Below, in pieces: positions 39,167 through 63,404 of a stretch of DNA of 64,000 nucleotides. The number at the start of each line of letters is the position of its first letter. Position 1 is the first letter of the stretch. The notes under the pieces were generated by a model. The model had not been told where the DNA came from and did not search any database. It saw only the letters and a program-made list of their open reading frames with translations. Source of the DNA: Agarophyton chilense (Eukaryota; Rhodophyta; Florideophyceae; Gracilariales; Gracilariaceae); the NCBI GenBank assembly GCA_030374765.1, contig JARGXX010000095.1:372001-436000 (forward strand). The letters run 5' to 3'. The translations under genes were made by a program, and so were the position numbers.

Positions 39167-39393
39167 TGTGAAGGAGCGGTGATAGCGGTTGAGCCCTGTA
39201 AGCCGCCGGGCCCTGAGGTATCTTACAGGCGACAAGTGGACGTGTCGACCTCAGGTGGACTCATGTAGATTATTATTTTTTTTTAATTAGTGTAATAGAT
39301 TATCATTATAGTGCCAAGGAGGTCTCAGCGCCTCGCCAGTATTATTTACTTGGCTCGAGTGACGCTTCTCCCTTAGAGTACGGTAGGCACCGT
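39167..39393 (+). repeat. 3' LTR of Ty3 element B (left arm of inverted repeat)
   Basis: Begins TGTGAAGGAGCGG after the polypurine tract. About 227 bp are repeated in reverse complement at 39600-39828. The true right end lies in the spacer 39394-39599 and cannot be fixed by eye. Confidence 0.75.
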
Positions 39394-39520
39394 TATGATA
39401 ATAAATAACCCCCGTTGGTATATTAGTTCCACCCTTTGGTCTTCAAGCCATCGTTTCCGTAGCTCCAACCTGTATGACTACGCAGTAAACGCCCGCCCAT
39501 TGCACTAAGTACTCTGGGAG

Positions 39521-39577
39521 TGCCGCCGTCAAGGATTCGAACCTTAGGACCCGCTCTACCACGCTACCACCGGTCGA
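39521..39577 (-). other. tRNA-like sequence lacking an anticodon arm
   Basis: In the spacer of the inverted repeat, the minus strand shows a D-arm-like GGTAGCGTGGTAGAGCGGG, followed after a few bases by a perfect T arm, TAAGG-TTCGAAT-CCTTG (39546-39530), with a B-box GGTTCGAATCC. The stretch that should hold the anticodon arm is absent, so it is not a functional tRNA. It may be a SINE head or a tRNA-derived scar. Confidence 0.35.
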
Positions 39578-39599
39578 GACCCGTACGCTGACCCAACAG

Positions 39600-39828
39600 T
39601 CATTGCGTTACACCGATTCTAAGAGAGAAGCGTCACTCGAGCCAAGTAAATACCAATGGCGAGACGCTGAGATCTCCCTAGCCCCGTAAGGCTATTCCAT
39701 CACACTAAAGAAAATAAAATTGTTCTCTAGATAGGTCCAGCTGAGGTCGGCCAGTCCACATGGCGTCTGTAAGATACGTCAGGCTCTGGCGGCTTACAAG
39801 ACCCAACCGTAATCTTTGCTCCTTCACA
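39600..39828 (-). repeat. Oppositely oriented LTR of the element B family (right arm)
   Basis: On the minus strand it begins TGTGAAGGAGCAAAGATTACGG at 39828 and follows the 39167 LTR base by base, with substitutions. It shares blocks such as GTATCTTACAG, TCGAGTGACGCTTCTC and TTTACTTGGC. It interrupts the 3' end of the transposase-like frame at 39829-40270, so it is a solo LTR or the end of a lost element. Confidence 0.75.
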
Positions 39829-40270
39829 CTGCTCTGGACTTAATGATTCAGTTGTATTGTCTTCCTGGACAACTTCTACCTTTTTAACATCGGCTTGAAG
39901 ATGTATAATTTTCTCGACGACTTGCGATTTTTGAAGTGAACTAGAAAGCGAACGCCCGATCCTACTCATTTCTTTCATTAAGTCGGCCTTTGTCTTGGAA
40001 GTTAGCGCCGTTGCTCTTGAAGATAACAGAAATGCTTGCATATATTCGTAATCATTTTGCGTCAGAGCGGAAGAGGTTCGCATGTTTAGAACGTGACACG
40101 AAGCTCTCAATCGCAGCTCCAAATGTGTTACAGCTTCTGTAGAGTTCTCAGAATTTTTTGTCCCACCATAACTAGTAGGTTCTCCACGCACTATCTCGGA
40201 AAGGGCACGAACACTGACTTCAAAATTTTCTGCAAGGGCGCAAATAAAGTTATTCGTTGTTCGAGATGTG
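39829..40270 (-). pseudogene. Split transposase-like gene, C-terminal piece
   Basis: Minus-strand frame from the TSD at 40266-40270 (TSRTTNNFICALAENFEVSV) to the LTR at 39828. It includes a helical SAP-like segment (SKTKADLMKEMSRIGRSLSS). Removing the Ty3 element and one copy of ATGTG joins it in frame to the piece at 51439-51780 (ARAFQF then TSRTTNN). The frame now ends inside the inverted LTR at 39727. Function: it belongs to the same ORF as the ADRGY-containing piece at 56274. Confidence 0.7.
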
Positions 40271-40834
40271 TGTAGTATAGTGGATCCGAGCGGGTTGTCA
40301 GGTAAGAACGGCGTGGTCAAGAATGATTGAAAGTGGCCTGGTTGCACACGTGTGCGAAGATGGCACGCCGGACGGACATGTGCAGTAGGTTACCACGTAG
40401 CATAGTTGTAGATAGTTGGCGCACCCCACCTCGTGATATTTTCGCCACGTGGGTGCAGGCGCCACTACGGACTGTAATGCGGGTTGCAGCTCGGAGGTGC
40501 ACACTACTTATGCACCTCCGCTCCCCGCCACCCTCCAAACAGTAAAGGGTAAGCACCACCATCCCAATCTAAGTATCGTTTCTATAGCATACCTGAAGCG
40601 TTATTCCGTACGGGATATCTACAGGTTTACAAGCCGTTCGGGCTCTTCGCGCGTACCTCGATCCCGCCTGACGTTCCTAACCGCCCAGTCTCCCTACGAC
40701 CGCCCGGTGCTGGCGCTCGTCTCCACGCGTCACCGTTCCCCGACCGGCCTCGTGTGACACGCACGCCCCGCTTACGGACTCCGCAAGGGGTCGCGCCTCT
40801 AGGAAACTTAAACGCCTTTCGGCGCTATCTCACA
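40271..40834 (+). repeat. 5' LTR of Ty3 element C
   Basis: 564 bp, starts TGTAGTATAGTGG and ends CTATCTCACA. It is preceded by the target duplicate ATGTG. Confidence 0.93.
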
Positions 40835-40835
40835 T

Positions 40836-40853
40836 TGGTCTCCCGACTTAGAA
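40836..40853 (+). other. Primer-binding site of Ty3 element C
   Basis: TGGTCTCCCGACTTAGAA, one base after the LTR. It is the same tRNA primer as in element A (one base difference in the first 18). Confidence 0.7.
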
Positions 40854-41066
40854 GTGGGATTCGTGTTTACCGAACGGGTTAGATCAGATCTGGAAAGGAT
40901 TCACGCGATGCAGTCTCGTGACGCAAACGTGGAGTCGACTGCACGGGTTGATGTCGAAAAATAATTGGCTCCGTCTGGCGAGCCACCCCTGCAGACCGCT
41001 TCGGACATCGCTTCGGTTGGCCGCCGGAGCATCCGCAGCACTGCACCTGCCCTGTAATTCCGCCTG

Positions 41067-43156
41067 GTGAACCCCGAGGTTCTCGTCCGAAAACCCTCGA
41101 GGCCCCCTGGGCTTTCCGCCTCCTCATCTGCACGGTACGAAAGCACCCCAGTCAGTTCGGCCGTTGCAGGGACTGCCCAGCAGTCCCCCGCTCCGATCGG
41201 ACAGGACCCTCCGAATAGCCCTCCGCGGGCGCTTACAGAACTGTGGAAGGAACTCGAACCGTATTGGCACTATAAGGTCAAGACAGAGATCGAGTCCCGC
41301 GTTCCCGTTCGGGTTGAGCGCTATCTGCACGAGCGCCTACCGGAGTTGCTCTCCGAAATCATCTCCCCGATGATCCTCGAGACCGTCGAGGAGGTGCTGC
41401 AGCAATTGACACCGATCGGGTTTAGAAAAGGAATAAGAAAGACCGACCGGCAGTTTATACGGCAACGGCGACGTTGCCACCCCTCCCAAAGTTTTCAATG
41501 GTCCGCCCGGACGTAGCCCCGGATCACGAACCCGAACGGATTCTGGAACCACATGAAGGGGGACAGCAGAGTGCCCCCATGGTCCCAGTCCGTCCGGTTA
41601 AATCACACCGAGATGATCCGAACGGACGTTCAGACAACTCTTCCTCTGATGACGTGGGAAGAGGCCTCCGTAAGAAAGGCGGTAGGGCTGACTGTAACTC
41701 CGATTCGGATCGCCACAGTCGCGCACGGAAGAGCCGTCGTCGTAGACAGAAACGACGCCTCTCCGATTCGGACACTGATTCTGACCGCTCGGATAGTTCG
41801 GATGTCGTTTCCCGTACTGACAGTGACTCTGACTCAGACCGTTCTGCTCGCAAAAGACGCTCCGATCGTTATCGTCCCCGTTCGGAGACGTCTGCACCCA
41901 GGCGCATCAAGCCCCTGAACGAACTTTTCACCAAGGTGGTGGAATACCGTACGTACCGGCTCAACGACCGTAGTCGGAAGTACAAGTCGAAGGTAGCGCG
42001 GGGAATCGCGCGCTACCAAAAGAAGTTTAATGTCCAGATGAAGGAACATTCCTTCTCCGGAGCTGATGCTATTTCATTTCTGAACTTTTTGCAGCGGTTT
42101 AAAACCGCCTGCAACCACAACGGACTGTCCGAGAGAGCAGCACTTTGGTGCTTCCAATTCTACCTGACCGGATCGGCTCACGCGTTGATCCAGTCTCGCC
42201 TCTTTGGAGAAACGGGCGCCGTTGACGTGCGGCGCTGCAAAATGCTCCGTACCTACTCGGAAGTTGTCAACTTTCTATTGACTACGTACGCCACGGATGA
42301 AGTCATTGCCGACGCCTACTAGGAGGTTACTCTGTACCACCAGTCCTCTGGGATGTCCGAAATGGAATACTCCCAGAAGATTTGGACGAAGGCCCTTCGT
42401 TGCGGCAATGTCTTTCCCGACCGGAGGTTGACGTCTATCTTCGTGGAGGTATTGCTTCCCGCTATGCGGGCGAAGGTGAGAAATCACCTCACGTCTCATC
42501 CGCACATCGGATACGACGCACTCGCCCGATACGCCGAGTCCTACGGGTACACCCACCGCTCGGCTAGACGCCAGTCCGTCCGGACCGAGACGCCGCCCGG
42601 CACGAAGCTGATCACTCCCCGAAGTTCCGCACGGAAAGTCTTGAGCGTGGGAACCCCGACGGATTCCTTTGATACCGACACGGAAGATGGCGAAGCGATT
42701 CTCGCCTTTGGGCGTGGAATCTCCGCCCCGTCGGCCCTGACGACACCGTCGTCTTCAACATTTTCCAACTCGGGCACTTACCGTACGGCACACGCTATGA
42801 CCCCAGGTACCCTTCAGATGCCTCCGATTGGTACAGCGCCGCCCGGACGATTCATGAACCGTACGTGCCGGATTTGTTTCTCACGGGAACCAAATTGCTG
42901 TCAGATGGTACCTCCGGACGTCCGGGAAGCCTTACTTGCCGCATGGGAGAAAAATTACCAACTCCGTCGTGAAGAGGGACACTGCAACCGTGACGGTCCT
43001 AATGGCTCCGCTCGGGTTTCTACTTGCGTACGCTCGGGCACTTCCGCACGGGCTACTCCATTCCGCGCTAGCTCATCCCGACCGGTTATGGTCATGAAGA
43101 ACGAACCCCTAGCTCAGCCCGTCACGGAACAGGAAAACGCCGAGGAGAGCGTGTAG
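41067..43156 (+). pseudogene. Gag of Ty3 element C
   Basis: The N-terminal frame (41067-41516) has a helical region, LPELLSEIISPMILETVEEV. It overlaps a second frame (41474-42322) that holds a Ser/Asp/Arg-rich linker and the start of the capsid-like domain (LFTKVVEYRTYRLNDRSRKY). An in-frame TAG at 42320 interrupts it. The same frame then goes on from 42353 with LRCGNVFPDRRL and ends 43156. The nucleocapsid knuckle is degenerate (CRICFSREPNCC lacks the His). The change of frame near 41500 and the stop mean no full Gag is made. Confidence 0.8.
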
Positions 43157-43224
43157 AGGCGCACGACTCTCCTAGGCCGAAAAGCCTCACCGAGACAGAT
43201 TACACGGGTATTCCCTCCGACCTG

Positions 43225-43708
43225 GTGGAGCAATACCCTGCGGACGCTTTGGATGAAACCGATCCGGCCGCGCCAGTAATGTTGTTAAACAGTTTGCACT
43301 ATAAAGTGAATTTCTCCGTCGGCTTCTCCCGATCGGTAATGTTTCCACTTACCGGTGTACTGGCACCTTCCTCCCCACTGGCGAGGACACTTGCAACCCC
43401 GTTCGGTAGATAACATTACGGATGCGTCCCGCAACCGAATGGACATATTGGGGGTCGTACCCCTCCTTGTCCTGCCTGGCGCGTTGACCGTCCGGGTTCA
43501 GTTTATGGTAGCCAGCAATCTGGCTGCCAGCTGCATACTCGGCACGTCTTTCCTAGACAAGTACGTTTTGGCGATACTACCTCCGAAACGGATTCTTGTA
43601 CTACGCCACTCGCCCCCTGTGGCGATTCAATCCGCGTCCGGGCAAAGCTCAACACCGTCCAGGACACCCATGCTACCTGCCCCAACTACCGTTCGGGAGA
43701 CTCCGTAG
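43225..43708 (+). pseudogene. Decayed protease region of Ty3 element C
   Basis: Frame pieces correspond in position to the protease of element A. The second half is recognisable (MDILGVVPLLVLPGALTVRV, then AASCILGTSFLDKYVLAI, the usual I-L-G-x-D/S-F-L end). The first half shows no D-T/S-G catalytic triad in any frame and changes frame near 43390. Catalytically dead. Confidence 0.6.
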
Positions 43709-43747
43709 AACAAGATTCGTGCTGCCCGTCCGGTTTCTATACCACCG

Positions 43748-46700
43748 ATGTCGGAATCCCATGTACTGGTAACATCCCGGGCCGCTGGCCTCATTTTTAT
43801 CCAAGGACATCACCCCTCGGCTCATAAAGAGGAATTAACCCTCTTGGCTGGCGGGGTAATGAGAATCCGACCGGACGTGGCCTTCTACGTTCAGGTGGCT
43901 AACTATTCCGACCGCCCGGTACGCCTTCACAAAGGCAAAATCATCGGCCTGGCTTTACCTTCCCCCGTCGCATTAATAACACCCGACTTTCCGTCTCGGA
44001 GCGACGAAACTGAAGAGGGGGGCCCCAATGACGCATCTCTTTCCGTTTAAGATGTGTCGAAGCCCACCGGACAGGAGCCAACGCCTGATGCAGAGAACGT
44101 CTGGATCGCAAAGGTCCAGTTGTCTCCCGAATTCGAGTCCGAACGGGAAAGGGTTATCGAGCTCCTCAAACCGTTTCGGGACATGTGGAACGGCCATCTA
44201 GGCCGTATCGCGTCAGCAAAGCACAGGATCCAATTGAAACCTGGTACGAAGCCGATCTACCAGATGCCATACAGTGCGGGTCCGGCGCGTCGCGAACTGG
44301 AACGTAAGGAGGTCACCAAGAAGTTGAAGCTTGGCGTAATTGAGCCTTTCTCGGCCGAATGGGCGAGCCCGTTCGTGTTTGCTCAGAAGAAAGACGGGAG
44401 TCTACGCTTCTGTGTGGACTACCGCCGACTAAACGAGATCACCGTTCGGGATACTTACCCACTACCGAGAATGGACGAATGCATCGATTCTCTTGGAGAA
44501 GCGAAAATATTCTCCACCTTGGACGCAAACAGCGGGTATTGGCAGACCAAAGTGGATGAAGCCGACCGGGATAAAACGACGTTGACGTCCCAAATGGAAC
44601 TGTACAGGTATGTTCGAATGCCGTTCGGTTTGAAGAACGCCCCCACCACATTGCAACGGGCCTTGAACATCATACTGTCCCGCGTCAAGTGGCAATATGC
44701 CTTGGTCTATCTTGATGACGTTATCAGCTACTCCCGCACGGTTTCGGAGCATTTCGACCATGTTCGGACCATTCTTTCATTACTCCGATCGGCCGGTATC
44801 ACTCTCCATTTGGATAAGTGCCAATTCTTCAGCGGTACTGTCGATTATCTGGGTCTCGTTATCCGTCCGGACAAGCTGCAGGTCTCCACAAGGACCCAGG
44901 ACGCTATCCGAGCGGCCAAACCTCGCACTAACCAAACCGAACTCCGTTCGTTCTTCGGACTGTGCAACGTTTTCCGATGTTTTGTTGAAAGCTTTGCCCG
45001 AATTGCGGCCGCGCTGAACCGCAAGCTCGAAAAAAACCAACCGTTCTACTTCGAGGCCCTGACCGATCCGGAACACGAGGCCTTTGAGGAACTCCGCCAA
45101 CGGTTTATACGACCCCCAATTCTGGCTATCCAGCGTCAAGATATGCCGTACGTCCTGGACACCGACGCCTGCGACAAGAAAGTCGGTTGTGTCTTACTAC
45201 AAAAGCAACCTAACGGTGGTTTACTTCCGATCGGATACTGGAGCCGCTCGCTGAATAAAGCCGAGCGGTCATATTCCACAACCGAACGGGAATGCCTCGC
45301 TGTCGTGTGGGCAATACTGCATCTCCGACCGTATCTCGAGGGAGCCCGCTTTACTCTCCTTACGGACCACCACGCTTTGAGGTGGATACTCAACCTGGCG
45401 GACGCATCTCGACGGCTAGCTCGTTGGCGACTTCGTCTCATGGAGTATGACTTCGACATAGTCCACCGGCCGGGCATAAAACACCAGGCCGCTGACGCGC
45501 TGTCGCGAATCCTGACGGACGGAAAAGACACCACTCCCCTGGACGAGGAGGTCCCATGCCTACTTCTTGCAGACCGCGCGGAAGAGAACGACGACCTCGT
45601 CGCGGACATCACCGTTGACGGTGAGGTCAAGACAGAAACTGTCCTTGACTGGCACGATGGTCAGAACCCGATCGGCTGCCTCGAGGTCATGGCCATCGTG
45701 GAGGAGGAGACAAACGTCCGACCGGTCACTTTGGAAGAGCTCATCCGAGCGCAGGCGGAGGACGAGTACTGCAAATCCGTGTGGAAGGACGTGGGTAACG
45801 GGATTACCCTCTTCGACATCAACCGTTACAGAGTTCTCGTCCGTCGCTCCCCGCTGGAAGGAGCCCTACAGAAGGCGGTACCCCGCTCGCTAGTTCCGCG
45901 CGTCCTCTGTCTTTCGCATTACCCGCGTTTGGAAGGACACCCGGGCGGGACTCGAATGTAAAACACTCTCCGAACGGACTTCTACTGGCCGAAGATGGCT
46001 AATAATGTTTATCAAGCCGCTTGGGATTGCCACTCGTGCGCTGCAATGCGCGGCACACAAAACCGTTCACAGAAGCGGCTTAAGCTCTTGCCACTTGAGT
46101 TCGTGGCAATTGACATTGTCGGTCCATTTCCGAAGTCAGTCACTGGACATGAGTACATCCTCGGCATCACCGACCGGTTCACAAAGCTCTGCAGAGCAGT
46201 TCCGCTACGGTCCACAATCGCCCCGGGGTTGCCCGGACGTTCCTAGAGAATTGGGCTTACCCGTACGGAATTCCCAACTACTTGCTCACCGATAACCGAC
46301 CTCAGTTTGTCTCGAAGTTCTTCGAGGAAATTTGCCGGGCGTTTGGCACGAAACACGTCACGACAACGGCGTACCACCCGCAGACCAATGGTCAAGCCGA
46401 ACGGTTTAGTAGGACGCTGGTTCAGCGGCTAAGGCACTACGTTGCGGATCACCAGTCTAACTGGCACGCGTACGTGCAACCACTTACGTACGGTTACAAT
46501 CTACAGATTCACTGAAGTACGGGCACAACGCCGTTCGACCTTACTCTTACCCGAGTACCTCCAAACGTGGTGCTCGACGAGCCTAGTTCCGCTACAGATG
46601 CTGCCACACCGGCCCAACCTACGCCGGGGCAGATGAAGCGTTACACATTGCGGCTGCTTAAGGCAACGCTTCAATCCGCACGGAATCGGCTGATGAACGC

Positions 46701-47282
46701 ACAGCGCCGTTACAAGGAGGACTTTGATAAGCCGTGCGGAAGTTGGAGTCATTTGCGGCCGGGGATGAGGTTTTCCTCGACCGTTCTACGACAACGCCGA
46801 CCGGTGGCGTGCTCGAAGAGCACAAACGTACCTCGCGCAAACTGTTACCGAGGACGGCGGGGAACTACAAAGCCATCTCCGCGACGGACAGCACAGTCAC
46901 GATTGATGTTGACGAGATTCACGATACCGTCAGCATCGACCGCGTCAGTCGCGTCCCTGTTCGGACAGAACCGGCCCCGGTCACCACAGAACGCGCCCGC
47001 ACGGTAACTTTTGATACGGACGACCCGTTCGCCGAGGAAGCCGTGACGGACACTACCTCGTCCTCCGCTGGAAATAATCACCGAACGGAGCCTTCACAAC
47101 CCGACTCGGCCAACACTACCCAACCGGACAGCATTGGAATTGTCGAGCAAATGCTTGACCATGGTCTGGCCGACGACCCTCCGCAAGGCCTTGTTTATCG
47201 CGTACGCTGGTACGGTTGCAATGCCGCGGAAGACTCTTGGGAAGCTCCGAACAATCTTCCGCAACACTTTATTAGCCAATAA
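43748..47282 (+). pseudogene. Pol of Ty3 element C: RT, RNase H, integrase, chromodomain
   Basis: The 1.9-kb frame 44054-45961 is intact and follows an in-frame TAA at 44048. RT blocks are CVDYRRLNEITVRDTYPLPR, TLDANSGYWQTKV, RMPFGLKNAPTTLQRAL and the active site VYLDDV near 44708. RNase H begins YVLDTDACDKKVGCVLLQ and ends GIKHQAADALSR. Integrase starts SHYPRLEGHPG, meets a TAA at 45959, then has WDCHSCAA and AIDIVGPFPKS. A frame change near 46250 leads to YLLTDNRPQFVSKFF and QTNGQAERFSR, and a TGA at 46513 interrupts the GPY-like part. A final frame (46734-47282) ends in a chromodomain (LVYRVRWYGCNAAEDSWEAP), which defines the chromovirus lineage. Confidence 0.93.
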
Positions 47283-48088
47283 TGGAAGCGCCAAAGCCGA
47301 ACGACAGGAGGCATTCCGAAATCGGACATGGCCTCCGGCCGAATCTCGCAGTTGACCTCCGATCGGTAGTCCACAGCGTGTGTGGAGCCATCTCGCGGCA
47401 AAAAGAAGGAAGGAGTGACTCCGTGCGACTCCATCAGCACCGCACCCCAACACAACCGGGCATGGACATCGACCATCACCACAGCGACAAACACTCTTGT
47501 AGACTGGGTAACTCCGGCACCGCGGCCCGCCGGGGGCCGGGCAACACGCGTACACCGATTACAACACGCCACCGGGTGCCCGCCTGCCCCCGCGGTGCCC
47601 GCCTGCATAACCGCGGCAAGCGTATACGCGCTGCGCTCCACGCCGGACCGAGCGGTTACCTACAAGGATAATCAAAAAAATCCGACGCGGAAATTACCAC
47701 TCCGTATGGCATCAAAAACGCAGAAAAATGTCCTGGCCGATATCTCAAAAACGAAGCCTTCCAGGCTCTGAAAATGGCCGATTTGGACTCTCCGCACGGC
47801 CAAAAGACTTGTGATTCTTTGAGTTGACACAAAGGCGCACTACACGCGTTACTGTATACCGAATCGGATACCGACCTAGCCGGGCATTGCTGTATCGGCA
47901 CGTGCACTCTAAGTCTGCAAACCCGCCAACCGGCGCCCACCGGTGGGACACGCACGTGGTGCACGCGCGTGGCGACGCGCGCTCAGACACCGCAATCTCG
48001 CACGTGTCGCAGCACCGTGTCCCGCGCCGTGAGGCATGACGGAGATGTTAAAATCGTTTACTCAGGTTCAACCGCAGGAAGGAATGAC
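47283..48088. other. Spacer in the 3' region of element C
   Basis: 800 bp after the chromodomain. GC-rich, with overlapping frames on both strands but no motif. Confidence 0.4.
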
Positions 48089-49935
48089 TCACATTCCTCG
48101 TTTTCCGGGCGGAGAAGACGCTTTCGAGATACGGGAACTCACCGGAAGAAACGCAAAGTCCCTGACTCTACGACGCCCACCGCGGCTGCCTCCCCGCTGG
48201 CCTCTCAAAGCACCCCTGCCGGCGTTCCCAGGACCTGGTACTGGCGACGGGGAGCCCGAACGACGCCCAGACGGCTGAAAGAGGGCACTAACCGCACTAC
48301 TGTGCGCGACACCCCGAACGGTACGACCCAGAGAGGACAGAGGCCGGGCCTGTACGGAGGCCTCGTTCGTTGGACCCCGACCAGGAGTCGGCTCTCCGGT
48401 TTCTTCGTCCCCCCGCGGCGCCGCAGCGGCCTGCGCCGCCGTCCCCACCGTCGACGGGTCCTCAGGATTCCCCGCCCGGTCCGGAACCGATGCGCCCGCC
48501 ACGACGTCAGCCGCCGGGACGCCGGAAACCCCAGGCGCTGCGGAAAATGACCCGGACCGTATCGCCGCTCGGATTCTCTGCAGCAACTCATGGGCGGCGT
48601 CATTCGCACGCCCCATTGACAGGTCCAGATGCCCAATGAGCTGAGATACCGTGGCGCCACCGGGTCGGGTTATTATGTCCCCGAAGGTATTGACGCGGTG
48701 CTGGAGGAGTTCAGCGCAGACCGCGCTGACATATGACATTAAGTCGACAGTACTGACCATCTCCGCGCTCAACAGGCTGGTGAACGCATCCACGCGGGGT
48801 ACTCACACCTCAGCCGCCATCTTTAAGGCTTCGACGACCGAATCGGGAGGCTCTTCATCATTCGCCCGGCAGGCTTCCTGCAGCGTTCATAGGGCATCAC
48901 GCTCCTCGTCGCCGACCGATGCGGATACCTGCACACCGGAACGTCGAAGAACTTCACGTTGAGCCACCCGTGCATGAAACCACCCAAGCCCGACCGGATT
49001 CGCGCTTCGGTCGCGACATGATCACCCCATCGGCGTCGGTTCAGAAAGTAGAGCCCGTCGCATGGAAGGGAAAACATCACGAGCCCCAAAAGGTTACCGT
49101 GCGGGTCGGGAATACCCTCGTCAGACAGCAAGCGCGTGACGAAGTCGCGCATACGACCTTGGTAGTCATACTCTTCCGGACAACGGAGAAACGGCATGTC
49201 ACAGCTGCCCACCGTCTCGTCGCCCTCCCAACCGGTTATTCGCGTAAGATGCCTCCAACGCGCGCCCCACGCCTCGTGGCGCGTCCGCTTCGGATTCCGG
49301 CCGGTTCGTTCGAAGAACGTTCGCTGCGTCGGTATTGCGCCGAACCGCCGCGAGTCCGAACATCTGCTCCATTCGTCCCCCGAGATCAGCGTCTCAACCG
49401 AAAACGGAGGTTCTTTCCCGGCCGGCCCACACCTACGGCCCTGCGGGCGTCGCCAGCGGTGGTCGTGCTCCTACCCATGGAGCGGGTTTCGAAACACACC
49501 GGGTAAGCCTGCGCCAGGCGCTGGATATCCGAACGGGGGTACCAGCACGCCCGCACCCACACGCCCTACCATTTGCGGCTGTATCGCACCGAACGGAAGA
49601 AACGAAGGCACGGAAGGATTCCCCGCCGACGCCGGCGGAATTCCTGTCGGTCGGGCGTCCCAGATCGCGTAACTGCCACCCTGGGAACCGAACAAACGCC
49701 CCGCGGAAGCTGCATCGTGTGCAGTTACAGGTGCCCGTCACGGTACCGGTATGTCCGCGAGGACCGGCGTCGGCTGGCGCCCCACGCTCTCCTCCCGGTC
49801 GTGGTTGACAGCCCCGTTGTTGTCGTCCATTGTCGAACCGAACGGAAGGACGCAGCCTCCTGAGTCCGTGTAGTATTCTACTATGTGGGGGAATCCGATA
49901 TGATGATTTTCCGCAAAGTCGCGGTTGGAACTCAT
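48089..49935 (-). pseudogene. Degenerate coding block antisense to pol, inside Ty3 element C
   Basis: Protein-like segments on the minus strand, switching frame, from an ATG at 49935 (MSSNRDFAENHHIGFPHIVE) to a stop at 48089. Gly/Pro-rich segments follow (VPPFGYPAPGAGLPG). Next comes a denser region around 49380-49200 (MEQMFGLAAVRRNTDAANVL) and 49200-48900 (MPFLRCPEEYDYQGRMRDFV, FSLPCDGLYFLNRRRWGDHV). The last part, 48793-48480, is helical (MSYVSAVCAELLQHRVNTFG, LSMGRANDAAHELLQRIRAA), and the end is Arg/Gly-rich. It could be an accessory gene of the element, expressed antisense, or a captured host gene. No family is recognised. Confidence 0.5.
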
Positions 49936-50040
49936 AAGTGAGTGATGTCATCAAACTTGTGATATGAAACGGCATCCCGCATAGGATGCCTAGAGGCAGA
50001 ATGTCTTAGTGGAACAAGTGGTATCACGAGTGGACTGGCT

Positions 50041-50535
50041 TGCAACGGCGCATGTAGTGGCGATCCACGTGGCTGGTTTTACTACCCTTTGTAGCTAGAC
50101 GTCCATTAGGGACCATACCCATACAGTGGTTTGGCTAAGTGGCTGACCACTGGGTATTATTTATATTTTTATTTGGGCACTCACCCTGGCACACAGTATA
50201 TGGTGTACCAGAGGTGAGCGCCGACTCCAAGTAAAGGAGACAACATGGGCATCATGACTATTCTGTTCCTCGCTTAGGATTCCTTAACCGGAGATCCGGA
50301 CGAGCTATAGTAGATAGTCAGCCCCCAACCACTTCACGAGCCGTCTCGTACCTACGTCCCATCAACGTTTTATAGTTGCACTGTTCACCATCGCCGGCGA
50401 GTAGTGGTCTTACACCCCACTTCCAGCTCGCTGGTGTTGTAGCTCTACCACCCCTTTCACTTCGCCGCAAGCGACCCATCGGCAGTCCGAACGCTGTCAC
50501 AGGTGTCTGCTCTCTCCGTTAGAGTGGATACTACA
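50041..50535 (+). repeat. Solo LTR of the element A family, nested in element C
   Basis: 495 bp matching the reverse complement of 4057-4545 along almost all its length (for example gtagctagacgtccattagg and gtaaaggagacaa). It ends GATACTACA, as the element A LTR does. I could not find a target duplication, so its left end may be eroded. It lies between the antisense block and the 3' LTR of element C, so it entered after or with element C. Confidence 0.8.
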
Positions 50536-50870
50536 GTGCGTACTCTTCGCAGCCGCCGTACCGGTCCTCTCTGGAGTCTACGCGTTGCTCCGCCCGGCGA
50601 AGAGAAGTGCTTAAATACGCCGCCGACGATCGCTCGCCGACGGGCGTGATATGACGTGCACTCCCGAACGGCTGTGGTATGGCGTGTATTTTCAAGCTGC
50701 TGTGGTACGATATGGACTTCCGAACGGGCCCGTATAACGCGACCAGTCGCTTCTAGAGCGTTTCGTGTCGGTTTGCAGACGCCACGCCGCGTCCGCTCGG
50801 TTGGCACTCAACCAGCTATTTCCTAGGATATTGGCACTCCGAGGACGTCGCGCACTCTAGGAGGGGGGTC

Positions 50871-51433
50871 TGTAGTATGGTGGATCCGAGCGGGTTGTCA
50901 GGTAAGAAGGGCGTGGTCAGGAATGATTGCAAGTGGCCTGGTTGCACACGTGTGCGAAGATGGCACGCCGGACGGACATGTACAGTAGGTTACCACGTAG
51001 CATAGTTGTAGATAGTTGGCGCGCCCCACCTCGTGATATTTTCGCCACATGGGTGCATGTGCCACTACGGACTCTAATGCGGGTTGCAGCTCGGAGGTGC
51101 ACACTACTTATGCACCTCCGCTCCCCGCCACCCTCCAAACAGTAAAGGGTAAGCACCACCGTCCCAATCTAAGTATCGTTTCTATAGCAGACCTGAAGCG
51201 TTATTCCGTACGGGATATCTACAGGTTTACAAGCCGTTCGGACTCTTCGCGCGTACCTCGATCCCGCCTGACGTTCCCAACCGCCCAGTCTCCCTACGCC
51301 CGCCCGGTGCTGGCGCTCGTCTCCACGCGTCACCGTTCCCCGACCGGCCTCGTTTGACACGCACGCCCCGCGTACGGACTCCACACGGGTCGCGCCTATA
51401 GGAAACTTACACGCCTTTCGGCGCTATCTCACA
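50871..51433 (+). repeat. 3' LTR of Ty3 element C
   Basis: 563 bp, starts TGTAGTATGGTGG and ends CTATCTCACA, followed by ATGTG. It differs from the 5' LTR by scattered substitutions, consistent with age after insertion. Confidence 0.93.
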
Positions 51434-51438
51434 ATGTG

Positions 51439-51780
51439 AATTGGAAGGCCCTGGCTAAGAACCACCCAGGGTCTTCTGATTGCAATAAAGTCACTTCCTC
51501 AACGTCGGTCATCACCTGTGCTACCTTCAAGCGCGATAAATAGGACCCTCCTGTATTGTTGGTTTCCGAACACTTATTGTGATGCTCCTTCCTCTCAAAT
51601 ACTCGATTAAGTTCTTCGACCTGCTCACGCCTATTTATATGCTTGTGCCTAGTTTTTGGTACCAAAGTAAACTTCGACGCCTTAAACAAAGTATCATTAT
51701 TATGATATACAGATTCCACACGTCCACTTTAGATTTCGCGATACACGACACCTTTTAATGGGCGCACAGATTCTTTCTTT
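51439..51780 (-). pseudogene. Split transposase-like gene, middle piece
   Basis: Lies between the Ty3 element C (left) and the copia 5' LTR (right). On the minus strand it opens just inside the copia TSD (KKESVRPLKGVVYREI), meets a single TAA at 51732, then reads SGRVESVYHNNDTLFKASKF up to DPGWFLARAFQF at the Ty3 junction. The block order GVVYREI, SGRVESVYHN, FTLVP, WFLARAFQFTSRT looks like one protein domain without gaps, which shows the insertions fell inside one gene. Confidence 0.7.
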
Positions 51781-52099
51781 TGTTATCAAAATCCTTATAT
51801 CGATGACTTGTACCACTACAATATCGATACTTCCTTTTGTCTACGAACTAAACTATCGATACGCCCATTCGTCTACGCAGCATCTTTCCTACTTATGACT
51901 GATAGACAGATTCATAGTTTTTTCTCCTAATCGGTAGGATTTGTTTTACGCGACATTGAACAATATACGGTACTGACCACGGTCAGTACGCTAGCGCTCA
52001 GTCCTCTTCGCCTGTCTCCGCGGACACACGGAGAACCTGCGTTATTCGGTAGGCACATAACCGACCCCCCCCCCGCTCTTTTCCCTGAGTGTGTGGACA
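51781..52099 (+). repeat. 5' LTR of copia element D
   Basis: 319 bp. It contains a 9-bp perfect inverted repeat, GTACTGACC-ac-GGTCAGTAC, near 51970, which is less perfect in the 3' LTR. A run of C near its end (52064-52073) differs in length between the LTRs. Confidence 0.85.
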
Positions 52100-52131
52100 T
52101 TCGCGAATTAAAACAAACGGCATCAATCATC

Positions 52132-53649
52132 ATGTCTGCCGACCCCGCAAAACCGTGTGGAACAATTTCCCTTCACAACAACTTGCAAAGAGGTCTTGCA
52201 AACTCGTTCTTAAGCTTCATGCAGACTGTTCCTCCGCTGAGCGGTGAAAATCTTCTTGAGGCAATTCGTGAAGACATTGGAGCCATGCAGCTTGTCAACC
52301 CGGATATAGTTAGCAACTACGAGATCTACAAACGAATTCGTGTGTTCTTGGAACAACGAGACATTGATGTTCCTCAGACATCTGATACTGGAAGGTTGAT
52401 GGGCAAGTTATAACAGCTATTTGGAATGATAAGGAGTTTGCCGTGCAACCTAAGCGTGCTATGGACTACTTGGACGCCGTTCGAAACGGAGATGCGATTC
52501 TTTACTCACCTGGAGGAAGCGGTTCACCTTTGGCAGCACAAATATCGTTCCAGCTTCAATTTCCACAACCTATCAATGTCGATAGAGGTTCTACAGACCG
52601 AAATGTGGGAGTAGCAGATGATAAACATGAGAAAAAGCGCGTAACGTTTTTCACCAGCCGTTACCGAGAAAAGCGCGGCAAATTCAAAGGCGATCTTGAA
52701 AAGGATTGGAATGATCATGTTTCTTCCTGCATGGACTACTGTAATCTGAAGAAGATTAACGATGATCTAAGAATTCAGTACCCGCATTTTTCTCTCGCTG
52801 GAGACGCGCTGCACTTTTTCAAGGGAGAAGTAAAGGGCTTGATTCAAAACTGGGCGTTGTTGTAGCAGTATTCAATGCTCGCTACGCTTCGGAGAAGACC
52901 AGGGAAGATATGTCTGCAAAACTAGAGGACCTCCATCTAACTGACTTCGTGACGGAAAATGTTTCTGAACGTGAAGCTTTGGACCTTCTCGTGAAAGAAA
53001 TTGATCTCCTTGCACCAATGGCTCACCAGGAAGACAGAACGGACAGACGCAAGCGCAACTTCCTTCGCGGCGCAGTTCAAGGCATTTCATTGTCCCAAAA
53101 CATCTTATCAAAAGTCAATTCCAAGCATCTATCATACATAGACTTGATGTCGGAGTTATTCAGTGCTGAAAGAAACCAACGCCAGTTCACGGCAGGACAA
53201 AACCGTGCGCAAACAGCGTAGAAGACGCAATGGGCATCTTCGGCTGATATTGCCTTTAGTCATCTCTTTCCACTGCAAACGTAGTCGAAGGACCACCAGA
53301 TTATGATCCTTCAGTTCACTTTGTCGGACAAGGACGTTACGCCAGACAATCGACCAGCCGTTCAACAGTCATACCCTCGAGGTTTGAAACTAGACCTTAC
53401 AACCAAGGACGAGTCCAGCCGCAACACACCGAAGTTCCCATGATACTCAAGGTCTGTTGGAATTGTCAGCAGAAAGGTTGCAGGCTTTTCACGTGTCCTA
53501 AACCCCGCAATGAAGCCCGTATTCACCGAAACAAACAGCTAGCGAAACAATGGTACAAACAATCTCGGTCCAAGAGAATCATCTTCACTGAACTCGACGA
53601 TGACGCCTATGCAACAGTGGAACAGCTGAAGGAATCGCTCCTTGTTTAG
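52132..53649 (+). pseudogene. Gag of copia element D
   Basis: Four frames in series. 52132-52413 opens with an ATG (MSADPAKPCGTISLHNNLQR). 52443-52865 and 52910-53221 hold helical segments (HLTDFVTENVSEREALDLLV, then GISLSQNILSKVNSKHLSYI). 53440-53649 has the zinc knuckle CWNCQQKGCRLFTC, where Cys stands in the place of the usual His, followed by CPKPRNEARIHRN. Gag makes the particle shell; this copy cannot make it whole. Confidence 0.65.
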
Positions 53650-53805
53650 GATCACTCACCCGACCCAGAACAAAGCCCAATCGGTGAAGCTGGAATTAAT
53701 GAAGGTACAGCAAACGCCAACTCAAGTGCGGCTTATATATCCAACGCGCTAACCAGTCGTGAACTCCCAACCCCAACCACTTCACCACTCCTGCATGTAC
53801 ACGAC

Positions 53806-55928
53806 ATGCCATGCAGCGCGGATGAAGGTTTTTGGATGGAGATCGACTCGGCCGCACGATCTCCAATGAAAGGCCCAAGGAACCCCCAGATATCCGTGAT
53901 TTCATACCAATGTACACATCGTTACTATCGCAATGCTCCCCTGCACGTTTTGTCCGTCACCGTATGCCTTCAAATTCGGCGACGGAAATCAAAACAGCCT
54001 AGGGCAGCTGCACGTCAGAGTACCCTTACCCACAAACGCATTCCACTCCTTTTCGATCGATGTCGTTGACGCCGACACACCGTGCCTGATTCGACTCGAC
54101 TTCCTTGATCGCTGTGGTGTCTATTTAAACAACGTGAATAATGAGCTTGTGAATCACAGTACAAAGAGTTCCGTTTCTCAATTACGGAAGAACGGTCACA
54201 TGTTTTTGTTTTGGAAGAACTCTGCAGTCTTGTTTACGAGAGCCCAACTATCCAAGTTCCATGAAAACATTTTCCATCCAAGTGCCCAAAAGCTCTATAA
54301 CCTCTTAAAACGTGCTAAATCAAAAGACACCACGACGGATACCCAAAGGATACTCCAGGACATTGCTCAAAAATTCAAATCATACCGGAAGTTCTCCGCC
54401 TCTCCCTTTCGCTTCCGTGTTTCAATTCCGGAGGCTGACATCCGTTTGAACCAAGAAATAGCCCTAGACCTCATGTACATTTCTTACAAACGACGTGGCG
54501 TATACGAAATCGTCTTCCGCGAAGAATTGGATCCGACATTGTCGCACAGCGTCCTTTATGTTCATTTTGCTCTTTCTATTGGGAACAAGGATACGGATAA
54601 TGAAGTTAACAAAGCGCGTTTCATTGCCAAAGGTCACACTGATTTCGAAAAACATCTTCTGGTACAAACGGGTACCACACTGAAGCAGTCTTCCATCCGT
54701 GTCCTCGTCGCCATTGCCGCACTATTTGGTTTCCCTCTCTGGTCACAGGACGTTTGTAGGCCTATTTTCAGTCAGCCCACCAGCTTTTGCGCGACATATA
54801 CGTAAAACCAGCAGCGGAATTTCGACTTTCGGAGAATCAGCTTTTGAAACTATTGAAGCCAATCTACGGGCTAAGCGACTCAGGTGATTACTGGAACTCT
54901 ACATTCACCAGGCACTTACGCCACGATTCGTCAATGACCCCAACAGCGGGAGACTTGTCCTTGTTCTTCAAAACAGTGAATAACAAGCTTACTGGCGTAA
55001 CTGGGGAATATGTAGATGACACAAGCAGTACTGGATATCCTGAATTTGATAACCAGTCCAGATTTACCGAAGTTCGCTTCGATTCCAAAGACAGAGAGTA
55101 CCAGAACTTCAAGTTTGCCGGAATCAATGTCCAGAAGATAGCAAATAGCTACAAACTCCACCAGACACAGTTCGTCAACCGTATCAAGCTCCTACGGCAT
55201 AAGGCCATGTATCCAGAGTTTTGATCAAAGCGGCAATAATTGGCTTGGTTAACCCAAAATAGACCAGATATTTCGGCCCCCGTCAACTCACTGGCTCCAA
55301 TTACAGGACCACTGTTCAATTTGGCCGCCATCGAATCAATTAACGAACTAATCCGCTGCACGAGAGCTACACCAATGAGATGTCTGCTTCCAAACCGTCT
55401 TAACCAGAAAAAGTACACATACGAGCGTGTATTGACAGTTGTTTCTGCAGGACCCCATCGCTGCACTCAAAACTTGGCCATTTGATCTGTTAGATGGATA
55501 AAACTTGTTTGCACAACACTATACACTACAGCAGCTACAAAAGTCAAAGACGTGTTCGATCGACCACGGGAGCATAACTATACGCTTTTTGCGACGCTTT
55601 TGACTACGCATATCTGCTGAAGCGTGAACTGCAGTCGATGTTGAATGACACTGTTCCGCTGATTATGTTGACAGACAGTGACTTTGTGTTCAAATCTATC
55701 ATTAAGGGGACAACAATGACCGAAAATCGTCTCATGCTGGACATAACGGCCGCGCGTGAAGCGTATGAAATCATAGAAATAAGCAACATCGGCTGGATTC
55801 TCGGTACCGACAATCCTGCCGATGGTTTGACAAAACATAAGCCGTGCTCTAGACTTAAACAACTTCTTGACACCTTGAATTGTTGTATCCCGGTTCAACA
55901 GTTAATACTTCGCATTGTAGACGTTTAG
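53806..55928 (+). pseudogene. Pol of copia element D: protease, RT, RNase H (integrase core lost)
   Basis: The protease shows WMEIDSAARSP and, after a frame change, FKFGDGNQNSLGQLHV and SIDVVDADTPCLIRLDFLDR. GAG-pre-integrase follows (LSKFHENIFHPSAQKLYNLL). At about 54480 the frame passes from the start of the integrase (NQEIALDLMYI) directly to RT (RGVYEIVFREELDPT), so the D,D-35-E core was deleted in frame. RT continues KARFIAKGHTD, KQSSIRVLVAIAALFGF, LLKPIYGLSDSGDYWNSTF and the catalytic GEYVDDTSS. RNase H ends GTDNPADGLTKHKPC. Several frame changes; non-autonomous. Confidence 0.85.
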
Positions 55929-55940
55929 GAAAGAATCGAG

Positions 55941-56273
55941 TGTTATCGAAAGCCTTATATCGATGACTTGTACCACTACACTATCGATACGTCGTTTTGT
56001 CTACAAACTAGACTATTGATACGCCCATTCGTCCACACAGCATCTTTACTACTTATGACTGATAGAAAAAGTCATATTTCTTTCTCCTAATCGGTAGGAT
56101 TTGTTTTACGTGAAATTAAACTGTTTACGCTACTGACCAGGGTCAGAACGCTAGCGCTCAGTCCTCTTCGCCTGTCCCCGCGGACACCCGGAGAACCTGC
56201 GTTATTCGGTAGGCACATAACCGACCCCTTCTCCTTCTCCCCCACCCCCTTCTTTTTCCCGAGTTTGTCGACA
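55941..56273 (+). repeat. 3' LTR of copia element D
   Basis: 333 bp, similar to 51781-52099 over its whole length with more substitutions than the LTR pair of the Ty3 element C. This suggests an older insertion. Confidence 0.85.
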
Positions 56274-56574
56274 CCTTTGGTATCCGTCGAGCAGAGTATA
56301 TGGCACGACAGCCTTTCTCACTTGTTTCAACCTTATGGCGTTTTCGCAGAGGCCCATCGCCAAAGATAAACGGATAATCCAGAGGCCATTTGTGATTGTC
56401 AAGAACAGTAGCTACAAGGCTTTCACTAAGAAAGTCTATTGCTTCTTGATGGCTGTAGCCACGATCTGCAGCGAAAATGAATTCTACCATTGAACGGATT
56501 GGTCCAGCAGTAGACACACCCTGCAGCAACCTCACCAGTCTCTCCCAAGCGTAAATAAATTTATCACCTCCCTA
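56274..56574 (-). pseudogene. Split transposase-like gene, N-proximal piece with ADRGY motif
   Basis: The minus-strand frame starts after a TAG at about 56575 (GGDKFIYAWERLVRLLQGVS) and runs to the copia 3' LTR (YSARRIPK). It includes IRSMVEFIFAADRGYSHQEA and WPLDYPFIFGDGPLRKRHKV. The ADRGY block with a following PF..GDG..KRHK and EKGCRA looks like a DDE-type catalytic segment I associate with transposase-like repeats of oomycetes and algae. I cannot name the superfamily. The true N-terminus is missing upstream. Confidence 0.6.
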
Positions 56575-57405
56575 GTAATGATTGTCATCAGTATGAGGGG
56601 GGGCCCCTTCGCGCCAAATCTCCCTACACGTCTGACCCGTGGCACGCAAATGCACTCCCACCCAATAATTATCGAGTGCACTTTGCTACAGTGCCGTGCG
56701 CCGCCCAAGTGCCGACCAATCAGAATACGTTATACACCTCCGACCCTCAGGCTCCAAAACAGCATATATGGTGCACTGATGATGATGAACCGGGTCAGAC
56801 AACTCGGCTCTTGAATCTAACCACAAAAAAACCCTCCAAATTTCAGGCATGGGCCACAGCACTATGATGACAAGAGACTGAGTGCTGTGATTCACAGCCC
56901 TGGGACCTAGGCAAGGCCGAGCTCGTGTGCAGGCCGCCATCGTAGTAACCCACTGAGTACCACGGATCTGGGAAAAGTCAGGTGCTGCGTGGTACACTGA
57001 TCGTTTGACGGCGATTCAGGAAGTCTTGAGGGTTTCCCAGACCTTATACCAGCAGACCTTGCTGGTATAAGGTCTGGGGCGGACGCCGTGTCGTACCTCT
57101 GGGGGCTGGAAAGCGCTTGCTCCACTGCGTGTCAGGGAGTATTTCCGTGAGTAATAGCAAACCCATCCCAACAACCGGACGCGGGTTAAAGGGCATACGG
57201 CTTGAAAACCGGCTGGGCACACTTCGTCCGTCAATTTTCAACAGAAGTGTGTCGAGAGTGCCTGTGCTGCGCATGAGTTGCATTGGGTAATAAATATGTC
57301 TTGCAGCTTTTTTTTTAATTAAAACAGCTGCATGCAACCAGCCCCGGTGGGTGCAAAGCAACAAACTGCAACCAAAGATCAAACGTTTTTCTTCACACGG
57401 TTTAG
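56575..57405. other. Spacer between the split gene and the Helitron
   Basis: No gene is seen. A perfect inverted repeat around ggtataaggtctggg / cccagaccttatacc lies at 57036-57077 (arms 15 bp, short AT/GC loop). Confidence 0.45.
57036..57077. repeat. Perfect 15-bp inverted repeat
   Basis: cccagaccttatacc followed, after agcagaccttgct, by ggtataaggtctggg; the agca/tgct of the loop also pair. The stem is almost 20 bp. It lies about 350-500 bp before the Helitron coding region, and its role is unknown. Confidence 0.8.
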
Positions 57406-57575
57406 TTGTGTTTGTTTTTTATATTACATAAACTTTGTCGTAGATTCGAAGAGCTAGCACAAGCTCAAAATAAAATGAATAAAGAAGAAGAAGAGAGACA
57501 AAACTATGGAGGCGTGAGAGATGGAGACGAAGAAGAAGAGGTTCTGGAGAAAACAGAGGCGCGACAATCGCAGGA

Positions 57576-60500
57576 GTGGAAGGACCCGAAAGAGTAACGG
57601 TTACTGTCGAAGATGCTCCAGATGAAGTACAAGTAAACGAAACTGGTCAGCATGTGCAAGATCCAGTCGTCGTCGCGGATTTGAACGAAGATGAAATCAT
57701 TACAGCTCCAATCATCGGTGGATCACTTCCAAGTACCACGAGAACCACTGAAAACCATCCTCGGGCTAATGTCGAAGAAGAGATGCCTGCTCCGATGGAA
57801 GTTGAAGAAGATGAAATCACTCCAGCTCCCGCACCATCCGCTGAGTCAGAGCTTCAGCAGGTTCCTACTTTTGCTATTCATTCAGAAGAACAACAATCGC
57901 TCCAAGAGCTTGATTCGACCGTCATGCTGTTTGCCGAACGTCCAGATCGTGGATTGTATCGCGTTTACTACGCATGGGATTCCGATGCTGCTCAAGCATG
58001 GATTGATCCAGCCACTCGTGCAAACATTCCTGAGTTTGAGACGTTGTCCACCGTAGGAACCCGCAGATGCAGAAGATGCGGTGAGTTTTCACACACCTAT
58101 GGTTCGTGTCCGTACGAAGACTGGACGTTACGAATTCATAGTTGCAAGTGGTGTGGGTGTGTGCTTTTAGGAAAAGAGGTACATGGAGTCTGTTGTGGCA
58201 TGAAACGAAATTCAGGATGGGGCGTCACATTTCGTAGACGCCATACTAATGAAGAAATACGAAGCATATACCGTTCAAGAGCATTCTACTCGAACTCCTT
58301 AAACTTGAATACGCTTTTTGCCACCACTCAAGCGTTTATGGACATGTCCTATGTCACAGGATGTGGCCCTTCGTTTCTCAGACTAGAAAAAACTGCAGCA
58401 CTCGCTCTCCCGGCACACAGACAGAGCAGCACGCGGTATAGTTTTCTTTGGGGCGCAGGGCCTCCTTCTCTGGATCCTGCTCACTATACACGAGCAAACC
58501 TGCGAGCGTTTATCCAAAACATCAACGTGAAACACATGGTTCCGAGACTTTACGAGGTGATTCAGCCCAAACCTGATGTGGTGCGAGAGCGGTATCGAGC
58601 GATGCTGACAACGGAGCAAATGCAGGCACAAGAAGAAAATACGGTTGACGTAAGCTCGCAAGCTGCGAACGAGGGAGTGATAGTGCGCGGATATGAGGGC
58701 ACCAGAACTGCAACAGTGTCTGGTGACAACGTAGGTGCAGGTCCGATGTCCGAAGATGCTCCTGGAGCTGGACCATCCATGATGAGAACCTTCGTAGTCG
58801 ATCCAGGCGGTCTGTACCATATCGAGGCCCAGGTGCCTCAGTTGACTGAAGGCACAGTTACGGAAGAACACGCAGCTATCACAGGCGACACGGAGCAAGC
58901 AGGGGCTGCAGTAAACTCAAACAGCAACCCCCGAGTGCGGTATAAATTGCTGAAACCGTCTTCTATGCTAGCAGAGAGAGGTACATTTCCCCTTCTGTAC
59001 CCGTATGGCGACGAGCATAAACCGTTTGACCTGCGTTTGTATCTGCAAGCACGAAATGGTACGCAAGAAAGCTTAGGGCTCGGTTTCGATCAGTGGAATC
59101 TTCAGAAGCTTACTTGGGCACAAAATGCAAAGCGTCGACTGTATTCAGATAACTTTTTGCTTAATAGTGGTCCATTAATGCAAATGTGGTTGCTTCGCAC
59201 ACAAACGAACATTGAAGACATGCGACTTCAATACCTAGAACGGCAGCAGCAAGCACGCATAGTTCAAGAGACGGAAATCGTTCAAGCGCAAAATCAATCG
59301 ACTGGCGGAATGACTGACGCGCAATTCAGGCTTATGGGACGCATTTTGCTTCCTGATGACTCAGTGAACTCTTCTAAGTACTGGAAAAGTAAACGACAAG
59401 ATGTGCAAGCGATTGTGGCAAGAAAAGGACCCCCTTCGCTATTCATCACCGTCACAATGAACGTATGGCGAGCGGATGTGAAGCGTTTAGGCATGGATAC
59501 GACTCATCGGAGTGCTTTCACAGCACCAGCTAATCGTCCACGCCCGTTTGACCGCCCAGACTTGATTGCCAGAGTTTACAACCAGTACATCAACGATATT
59601 GTGAAAGACCTCGAAAAGAATTCAGAACAGTTATTTGGGTCCAAGTGCTTGGGACTTGCAGCAAAGCTGGAGTTTCAAGAACGAAACGTACCGCACCATC
59701 ACATCCTGCTATGGTTAGAAGGAGGTGTAAATAGAAAACGTAGATGCCATTGACAGTCTGATTCGAGCCGAAGTACCAAGTCCAGGGGAAGATGACGAAC
59801 TGCGCGCCCTCGTTTTATCTATGCACCGCCACCGCCACTCTTCATATTGTCGTAATCGTGCAGGTCGTTGCCGATTTGGGTACGATAGCACAATGATTGT
59901 CCAAGAAACATACATCGAAGAAGGAACAAACCGTGTTGTTTACCGAAGAAGAAATGAAGAAGATCTCAAAATCGTGCCATACAATCCTACACTCACTAAG
60001 AAGTACCGCTCACACATCAATGTAGAGCGCACGCAGGGTGGAGGAGCGGTAGCGTATCTCATGAAGTATGCTTTTAAGCAGCCCAAAGCACAAGAAGTTG
60101 CTCTGAATGTTAGCAACCAGAATGAATCGGGTACAGATACCCAACAAACAGCTGTGGTGCAGAATGAAATCCGTGCCTACATGCGGGCACGTGTGGTGGG
60201 TGCCGTGAATGCTGCTTGGCGAATCTTTGAGTTTCGTCACGTCTCCATTCTGCCCACTGTGGAGCGACTTGCAATACATTTGGAGGGAGAGAGAACTTTT
60301 GTTCTTCGCAGCCCTAATGACATTCACACGGCTTCACAGCCATCAACACTGGAACGGTACTTTCAGAGACCTGAGACATATGCCAGTCTTGATTACCTCT
60401 CCTACTATGAAAAGGTGCGCCTGTATCGAACCCTCCCAACTAGTGTACTCAATCAGTTTGATGGAGACAGTTCTCAAGTGCCGAGAGACGATTGTGATCC

Positions 60501-62589: not shown

Positions 62590-62780
62590 ATATGCATCAG
62601 TGCTCAAACACTCAGCCAAAAAAAATGTTATGCTTTTCTATTTGTTTGCGTGTAAACCTGTTTTGATCTTCAAACTTTTCCCATTCCGGATTAGAGACGC
62701 ACGGAGCCATAAAAAGCCAAATCACCAAGATAGTTTGAAACCAATGCATTCTCGTGCTACAAAGAGATATCCGGCGCCAC

Positions 62781-63062
62781 TGTGCGTGCCGCGGCCGCTG
62801 CTAAGGCGCGCAGCGCCTTTAGCGGCCGTCAAGTTGCAAAGTACTTGCCTGTACGTCGCTAGCGGCCGTCAAGTTGCATAGTCCGTCACTTTAAGTCTAC
62901 ACTGCAAGTAATAGTATTGGCGGCAGTGCAAACGGAAATATGTGCGTGCTGCGGCCGCTGCTAAGGCGCGCAGCGCCGCTAGCGGCCGTCAAGTTGCTAA
63001 GTCCGTGCCTGTACGTCGACACTGCAAGTTACAGTTTCGGAGGCAGTTTGAACGGCATAATA
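62781..63062. repeat. GC-rich hairpin repeat pair downstream of the Helitron gene
   Basis: An 82-bp unit at 62781-62862 recurs at 62941-63022 with few changes (tgtgcgtgc-gcggccgctg, ctaaggcgcgcagcgcc, agcggccgtcaagttgc). Each unit folds into a strong stem (GCGGCCGCT...AGCGGCCG around GGCGC-GCA-GCGCC). The intervening 62861-62940 resembles 62977-63060, so units overlap. A third, weaker copy of gtacgtcgacactg lies at 63224-63237. Confidence 0.8.
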
Positions 63063-63369
63063 TGCTACAAATGCCCCATTGCTTTTAAAATAAAATGTCC
63101 TTAACCAAGCTCACCATACATTTCAGAGCTCGTTTCACGATATATCTTTAATATATCGTGCACCAGCTAATGCTAAACGGCACAGCGCTCCGAGTAGCCG
63201 ATACCCTTCTATGATCCATCACTGTACGTCGACACTGTCAATAATAGAATCTTCAGCAAGCTTGGCCTTATATCTCTGCAAAAGGCTACGCGTAGAGCTA
63301 CAAACGCTACTAAAAGCTCAAGAATAGTATAATAAGCCTTATAGAAACGAAATAGTCGAGGAGAACAAC

Positions 63370-63404
63370 CGCGGCGCGCAGCGCCGCCTGCGGCCGAAGG
63401 CCGC
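63370..63404. repeat. GC-rich double hairpin
   Basis: GGCGC-GCA-GCGCC followed by GCGGCC-GAA-GGCCGC. The same core as in the 62781 repeats appears again within AT-rich DNA. A candidate Helitron 3' structure, but no CTRR end follows at the usual distance. Confidence 0.6.

Follow-up and report, generated by a model that had tools for sequence, protein, structure and literature searches.

A minus-strand gene lies in pieces across 64,000 nucleotides of the red alga Agarophyton chilense (contig JARGXX010000095.1, positions 372,001 to 436,000 of the forward strand; this whole stretch is referred to as the window). It is very probably a dead copy of the transposase gene of a cut-and-paste DNA transposon, encoding a piggyBac-like enzyme with an embedded nuclease of the lambda-exonuclease type, and three subsequent insertions and a 3' truncation have broken it up. 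This reading is directly supported by the predicted protein architecture and conserved residues, by terminal inverted repeats (TIRs) and target-site duplications (TSDs), by the multi-copy state of the family, and by nested insertions and near-neutral divergence.

A first-pass annotation, made from the sequence alone, had proposed that three minus-strand frames are one gene split by a copia and a Ty3 retrotransposon, and that the frame is continuous at both joints when each element is removed with one copy of its 5-bp duplicate. Both proposals are borne out. Translation confirmed the three frames (56571-56275 and 40269-39829 open, 51782-51439 with a single TAA), and L016, an open homologue from the same genome, aligns collinearly with them by tblastn (residues 192-289 with 56565-56275, 286-403 with 51782-51435, and 396-545 with 40290-39829). 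The TSDs are TCTTT (51776-51780) and CCTTT (56274-56278) for the copia element, with 4/5 bases equal, and ATGTG (40266-40270 and 51434-51438) for the Ty3 element. When each gene piece was used as a DNA query of its own genome (79.8 Mb, 135 contigs), only two matches were found, the window itself and contig C98. The C98 paralogue (362033-363015) is uninterrupted and carries the pieces back to back (362033-362242, 362239-362580, and 362584-363015), with DNA identities of 88, 82, and 85%, respectively; by eye, its sequence (L007) contains a single AAAGA and a single CACAT, located at the joints. Because these target sequences are single in C98, it represents a paralogous empty site for the copia and Ty3 elements, both of which are clean insertions. 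For the Helitron joint described below, no empty-site paralogue was found; the C98 copy ends short of that joint.

The gene proved longer than its three annotated pieces; the first-pass annotation had missed a continuation across a third, Helitron-like insertion. This upstream piece (tblastn match 63419-63983 within the window) holds the N-terminal DNA-binding region and the first catalytic motif, SLDDDH. Its decay shows in stops and a change of frame, so that the frame is not continuous across the whole gene. At its other end the gene is truncated at 39829, against a foldback repeat. A tblastn search with six family proteins (E <= 0.01) over C95:352001-411829, 60 kb leftward, did not recover the C-terminal half; the nuclease core, the third Asp, and the Cys-rich end of the window copy were not found. 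Near C95:437030, a 53-bp remnant resembles the terminal repeat of the family (79-81% identical), and TTAA immediately precedes the position expected for the end, ~C95:437050.

Table 1 Pieces of the split gene and the elements that interrupt or adjoin it, in window coordinates.
Feature	Position	Strand	Content and evidence
Upstream gene piece	63419..64000, on to C95:436307 (window scale 64307)	-	tblastn with L016, P0002-P0006
Helitron-like element (third insertion)	56568..63414	+	Helitron_like_N (PF14214) 3.9e-27; PIF1 (PF05970) 1.6e-35
Gene piece 1	56274..56568	-	Second catalytic Asp block ADRGY and PF-x-GDG; tblastn, translation, same block in relatives
copia-type long terminal repeat (LTR) retrotransposon	51781..56273	+	LTRs 51781-52099 and 55941-56273; RVT_2 3.2e-12
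Gene piece 2	51439..51780	-	One TAA (placed at 51732 in the first-pass annotation), ending in WFLARAFQ motif; tblastn, translation
Ty3-type LTR retrotransposon	40271..51433	+	LTRs 40271-40834 and 50871-51433; RVT_1 and RNaseH
Gene piece 3	39829..40270	-	TSRTT motif and SAP-like region of nuclease; tblastn, translation, relatives
Foldback (inverted-repeat) element adjoining the truncation	39167..39829	.	211-nt arms, 79% complementary

Taking a clean insertion out of a coding sequence always restores the frame, so frame continuity is expected whether or not the gene mattered to its host; the earlier argument that in-frame joints would arise by chance one time in nine thus used the wrong null. 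Substitutions were counted by codon position. Between the window and C98, differences at first, second, and third positions number 10/16/22 in piece 1, 14/16/13 in piece 2, and 25/19/23 in piece 3, for a sum of 49/51/58, and L016 and L017 differ at 59/61/66. This nearly flat distribution appears close to the pattern of neutral decay, and the window copy looks neutrally decayed. Piece 1 alone leans to third positions, which weighs against this reading.

With the protein of piece 1 as query, we obtained 18 genome matches at 17 places by our own count, window included, one of them (on C4) only 28% identical. Thirteen loci were checked by tblastn: seven (L016-L021 and L025) extend from residue 304 or earlier to residue 1338 or later of P0002, a complete 1372-aa frame from a transcriptome, and the other six are partial. 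Among the seven long loci, L016 is in a single frame and six have frame breaks. The L016 open frame covers 1058 aa from stop to stop and 1024 aa from the first start codon, and ends inside the Cys-rich part. A database search matched P0001, an A. chilense protein, to L016 at 99% identity over 69% of the query, and retrieved homologues 1209-1391 aa in length, including one from Chondrus crispus and one complete transcript frame; two further searches added P0009-P0015. As these searches scored only the ~8000 candidates with the most shared words, the list of homologues is a lower bound. The open-frame relatives measure 1024-1391 aa, and the set is 23-52% identical to P0006. No relatives were found in phage records, and 16 pattern matches in viral contigs yielded none that could be confirmed. 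Two family copies, C111:1043854-1044090 and C111:1141429-1141665, lie ~98 kb apart in opposite orientation and retain nearly the same parts; perhaps they are a segmental duplication.

The structure model predicts an RNase H-like catalytic core with the fold of the piggyBac DNA-binding domain, and in structure comparison the fold match to piggyBac is well above that to Tn5. A plain Foldseek search with the whole model ranked lambda exonuclease first (E 0.062), with piggyBac not among the top 50. The Asp residues in SLDDDH and ADRGY are conserved in 15/15 proteins, and that in KGGVD in the 7/15 that reach it; they would form the putative catalytic triad of a piggyBac-type core. A Cys-rich C-terminus (CxxC..CxxC..CxxCW..H) occurs in five of the 15 proteins (P0002-P0006), while P0008 and P0015 reach the C-terminal end and fit a looser Cys pattern only. 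Sequence similarity to piggyBac is very weak: the best score against Pfam DDE_Tnp_1_7 is 18.2 bits versus a curated cut-off of 22.4, with 4/16 members matching at E <= 1, and searches of PDB sequences with a single protein or a profile gave nothing useful. Ordinary piggyBac sequences are present in the same genome (119 PF13843 matches), and a profile comparison with an alignment of four of their stop-free frames (A3) was in register through the first Asp, with a probability of 12% (1.7% with a smaller profile). A fragment of such an ordinary piggyBac (PF13843), from a different family than the split gene, is found in the window at 6637-7698 on the minus strand.

In the interval from the second to the third Asp, which in piggyBac is occupied by the insertion domain, the model places a nuclease of the lambda-exonuclease/YqaJ type, itself holding a SAP domain. 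Most of this insert is predicted to adopt the lambda-exonuclease fold. The E, D, and ExK residues, which we take to be the catalytic residues of the YqaJ/lambda-exonuclease family, are kept in the 9/15 proteins that reach the region. In Pfam, P0002 scores 25.3 bits against YqaJ (curated cut-off 22) and has a precomputed match too, L016 and P0008 fall below the cut-off, and 4/16 members match at E <= 1. In the window copy, the domain would begin at the WFLARAFQ motif that ends piece 2. Piece 3 itself has no Pfam match, and its SAP assignment is taken from relatives; the transposase type and the SAP-like stretch recognized in the first-pass annotation agree with the piggyBac-like fold and with the SAP of these relatives.

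The match between L016 and L017 spans 5.87-5.88 kb (93%), and that between L021 and L025 spans 4.8 kb (91%), the latter two elements being 4.9-5.0 kb long. The TIRs are ~175-193 bp long and start with CCCCGT, and TIR searches of the genome gave 14 and 10 matches. The paired TSDs of L016, L017, L021, and L025 are TTAG, ATAA, ATAA, and TTAT, respectively. Two further pairs known from their TIRs alone, 3.4 and 2.9 kb apart, show CTAG and TTAC, each with one end at which the repeat start is altered by eye (CCCTG and CCACG). All six paired sites are thus 4-bp NTAN duplications, and none is the TTAA of piggyBac. Single ends adjoin TTAA (the 5' end of the window copy and L027), ATAT (L018), GTAA (L056), TTAT (L057), and CTAA (L058), and for L059 either AGTA or GTAC, according to the position chosen as the start of the repeat. 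The best-supported reading is that a piggyBac-like core carries out cut-and-paste transposition into a target centred on TA, with a 4-bp stagger. Since the fold is piggyBac-like and both strict TTAA targeting and a score above the Pfam cut-off are lacking, we rank the family as a piggyBac-like lineage rather than as a filed member of piggyBac, one with an embedded nuclease and a relaxed target.

A possible mechanism can be outlined. The core would cut at the TIRs and insert the element with a 4-bp stagger at NTAN, where only the central TA may be firmly required. The embedded nuclease would probably act on the donor break left by excision, where it would trim or resect 5' strands, or it would process ends. 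Cut-and-paste elements depend on host break repair to gain copies, and resection could shift repair to homologous copying, e.g. from the sister chromatid, so that the element would be retained at the donor site. Catalysis, resection, and an effect on repair are all presumed in this scheme, and the insert may have other roles, such as end processing or plain DNA binding. Tentatively, and with low confidence, we suggest that the family is a separate lineage sister to piggyBac, in which a resection nuclease in the insertion domain couples excision with recombination-based restoration of the donor, and in which the TA-centred target is relaxed from TTAA.

It could also be that the family belongs to the ordinary piggyBac superfamily and that the nuclease-like insert is an overgrown, non-catalytic insertion domain with only a structural or DNA-binding role. 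SAP, a DNA-binding fold, does sit in the insert, and an excerpt of PMC7351741 describes the piggyBac insertion domain, at the same place, as contacting target DNA. We nevertheless find this unlikely, given the extent of the predicted lambda-exonuclease fold and the retention of E/D/ExK in all nine proteins reaching the region despite their divergence, which is unexpected for a purely structural relic. Membership in another YqaJ-carrying superfamily such as ISL2EU, with the piggyBac likeness due to convergence, is very unlikely in view of the single protein, the 4-bp TSD, the CCCC at the TIR starts, and a fold that matches piggyBac far better than Tn5.

Slightly less probable still is a host-domesticated gene later broken by retrotransposons, an option raised in the first-pass annotation. 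The UniRef name of the Chondrus homologue, "PiggyBac transposable element-derived protein", the complete transcriptome frame of P0002, and the third-position lean of piece 1 would fit domestication; the dispersal of many copies through a single genome, several of which have TIRs and TSDs, and the near-even substitutions across codon positions in both comparisons lead us to reject it. Frames of 100-150 aa are common in the window, so the three might have been unrelated and continuous by chance. This has a negligible probability and is rejected: a single uninterrupted paralogue spans the three frames (82-88% DNA identity) and has only one copy of each target sequence, and the pieces occur in the same order in protein homologues.

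The alternative first-pass suggestion of an undescribed transposon superfamily holds in part: the nuclease insert, the NTAN target, and the very weak piggyBac sequence match mark a divergent family, whereas the fold is piggyBac-like. We did not find this fusion described in the titles and abstract openings listed by our searches on piggyBac, YqaJ, nuclease fusions, and red-algal transposable elements; Repbase, which lay outside this search and for which an excerpt of PMC4455052 gives 1181 Chondrus crispus entries in 2015, may hold an entry.

The LTRs of both retrotransposons end in TG..CA. The copia pair differs at 35/319 sites (Kimura two-parameter distance, K2P, 0.119) and the Ty3 pair at 21/563 (K2P 0.038), suggesting a greater age for the copia element. 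The third element combines a Rep-like HUH domain with a PIF1 helicase, as expected of a Helitron. Its termini are approximate, to a few bases: 31/49 other genome matches to the left end begin at 56565 or 56568, and 28/39 other matches to the right end stop at 63414 (40 best of 55 candidates scored). Its copies end in CTTG or CTTGT after a GC-rich palindrome, rather than in the CTRR after a hairpin that is typical of Helitrons. The foldback element is a repeat family with 84 genome matches (40 best of 1487 candidates scored), and no target duplication around it was evident by eye. Elsewhere in the window, 36034-37965 on the plus strand holds pieces of what could be another Ty3-like element, which resembles the first at 71% across 72 nt. 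The regions 14000-16000 and 20000-22000 are GC-rich (66% and 63%, respectively) with short tandem repeats, and GC skew is strong at 20-22 kb.

If a transposase does carry a YqaJ nuclease inside its catalytic core, the role of YqaJ in eukaryotic transposons becomes directly testable. Likewise, relaxation of the target to NTAN in an enzyme of piggyBac type would help in understanding how TTAA specificity arises and how the domesticated relatives in ciliates depend on TA.

Phage enzymes of the lambda-exonuclease type are free-standing trimers. Compared with lambda exonuclease and YqaJ (PF09588; PDB 3sm4, 1avq, 3syy), the nuclease of the red-algal family is fused inside a transposase and interrupted by SAP. 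ISL2EU, also a DNA transposon, likewise encodes a YqaJ nuclease, but an excerpt of PMC4482050 describes this as a separate open reading frame (ORF) beside a THAP/HTH DDE (PHIS-type) transposase, with a 2-bp AT TSD and TIRs usually starting with GG, whereas here a single continuous frame, 4-bp NTAN duplications, and CCCC starts are found. The same excerpt gives the functions of the extra ORFs in ISL2EU and its kin as still unknown. PiggyMac (Pgm) of Paramecium is piggyBac-related and uses a conserved TA as cleavage landmark (PMC8086355); it differs in being domesticated and host-beneficial, with no nuclease insert mentioned in the excerpts consulted, whereas the split-gene family is a mobile, decaying transposon. 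With respect to piggyBac and piggyBat (PDB 6x67, 9c0f), the family is distinguished by its embedded lambda-exonuclease-like nuclease with SAP, its NTAN rather than TTAA target, its TIRs of 175-193 bp, and its score below the Pfam cut-off. In Trichoplusia ni piggyBac, the DDD triad is D268, D346, and D447, as given in part of PMC7351741, so that the second and third Asp are 101 residues apart, versus 627 in P0006.
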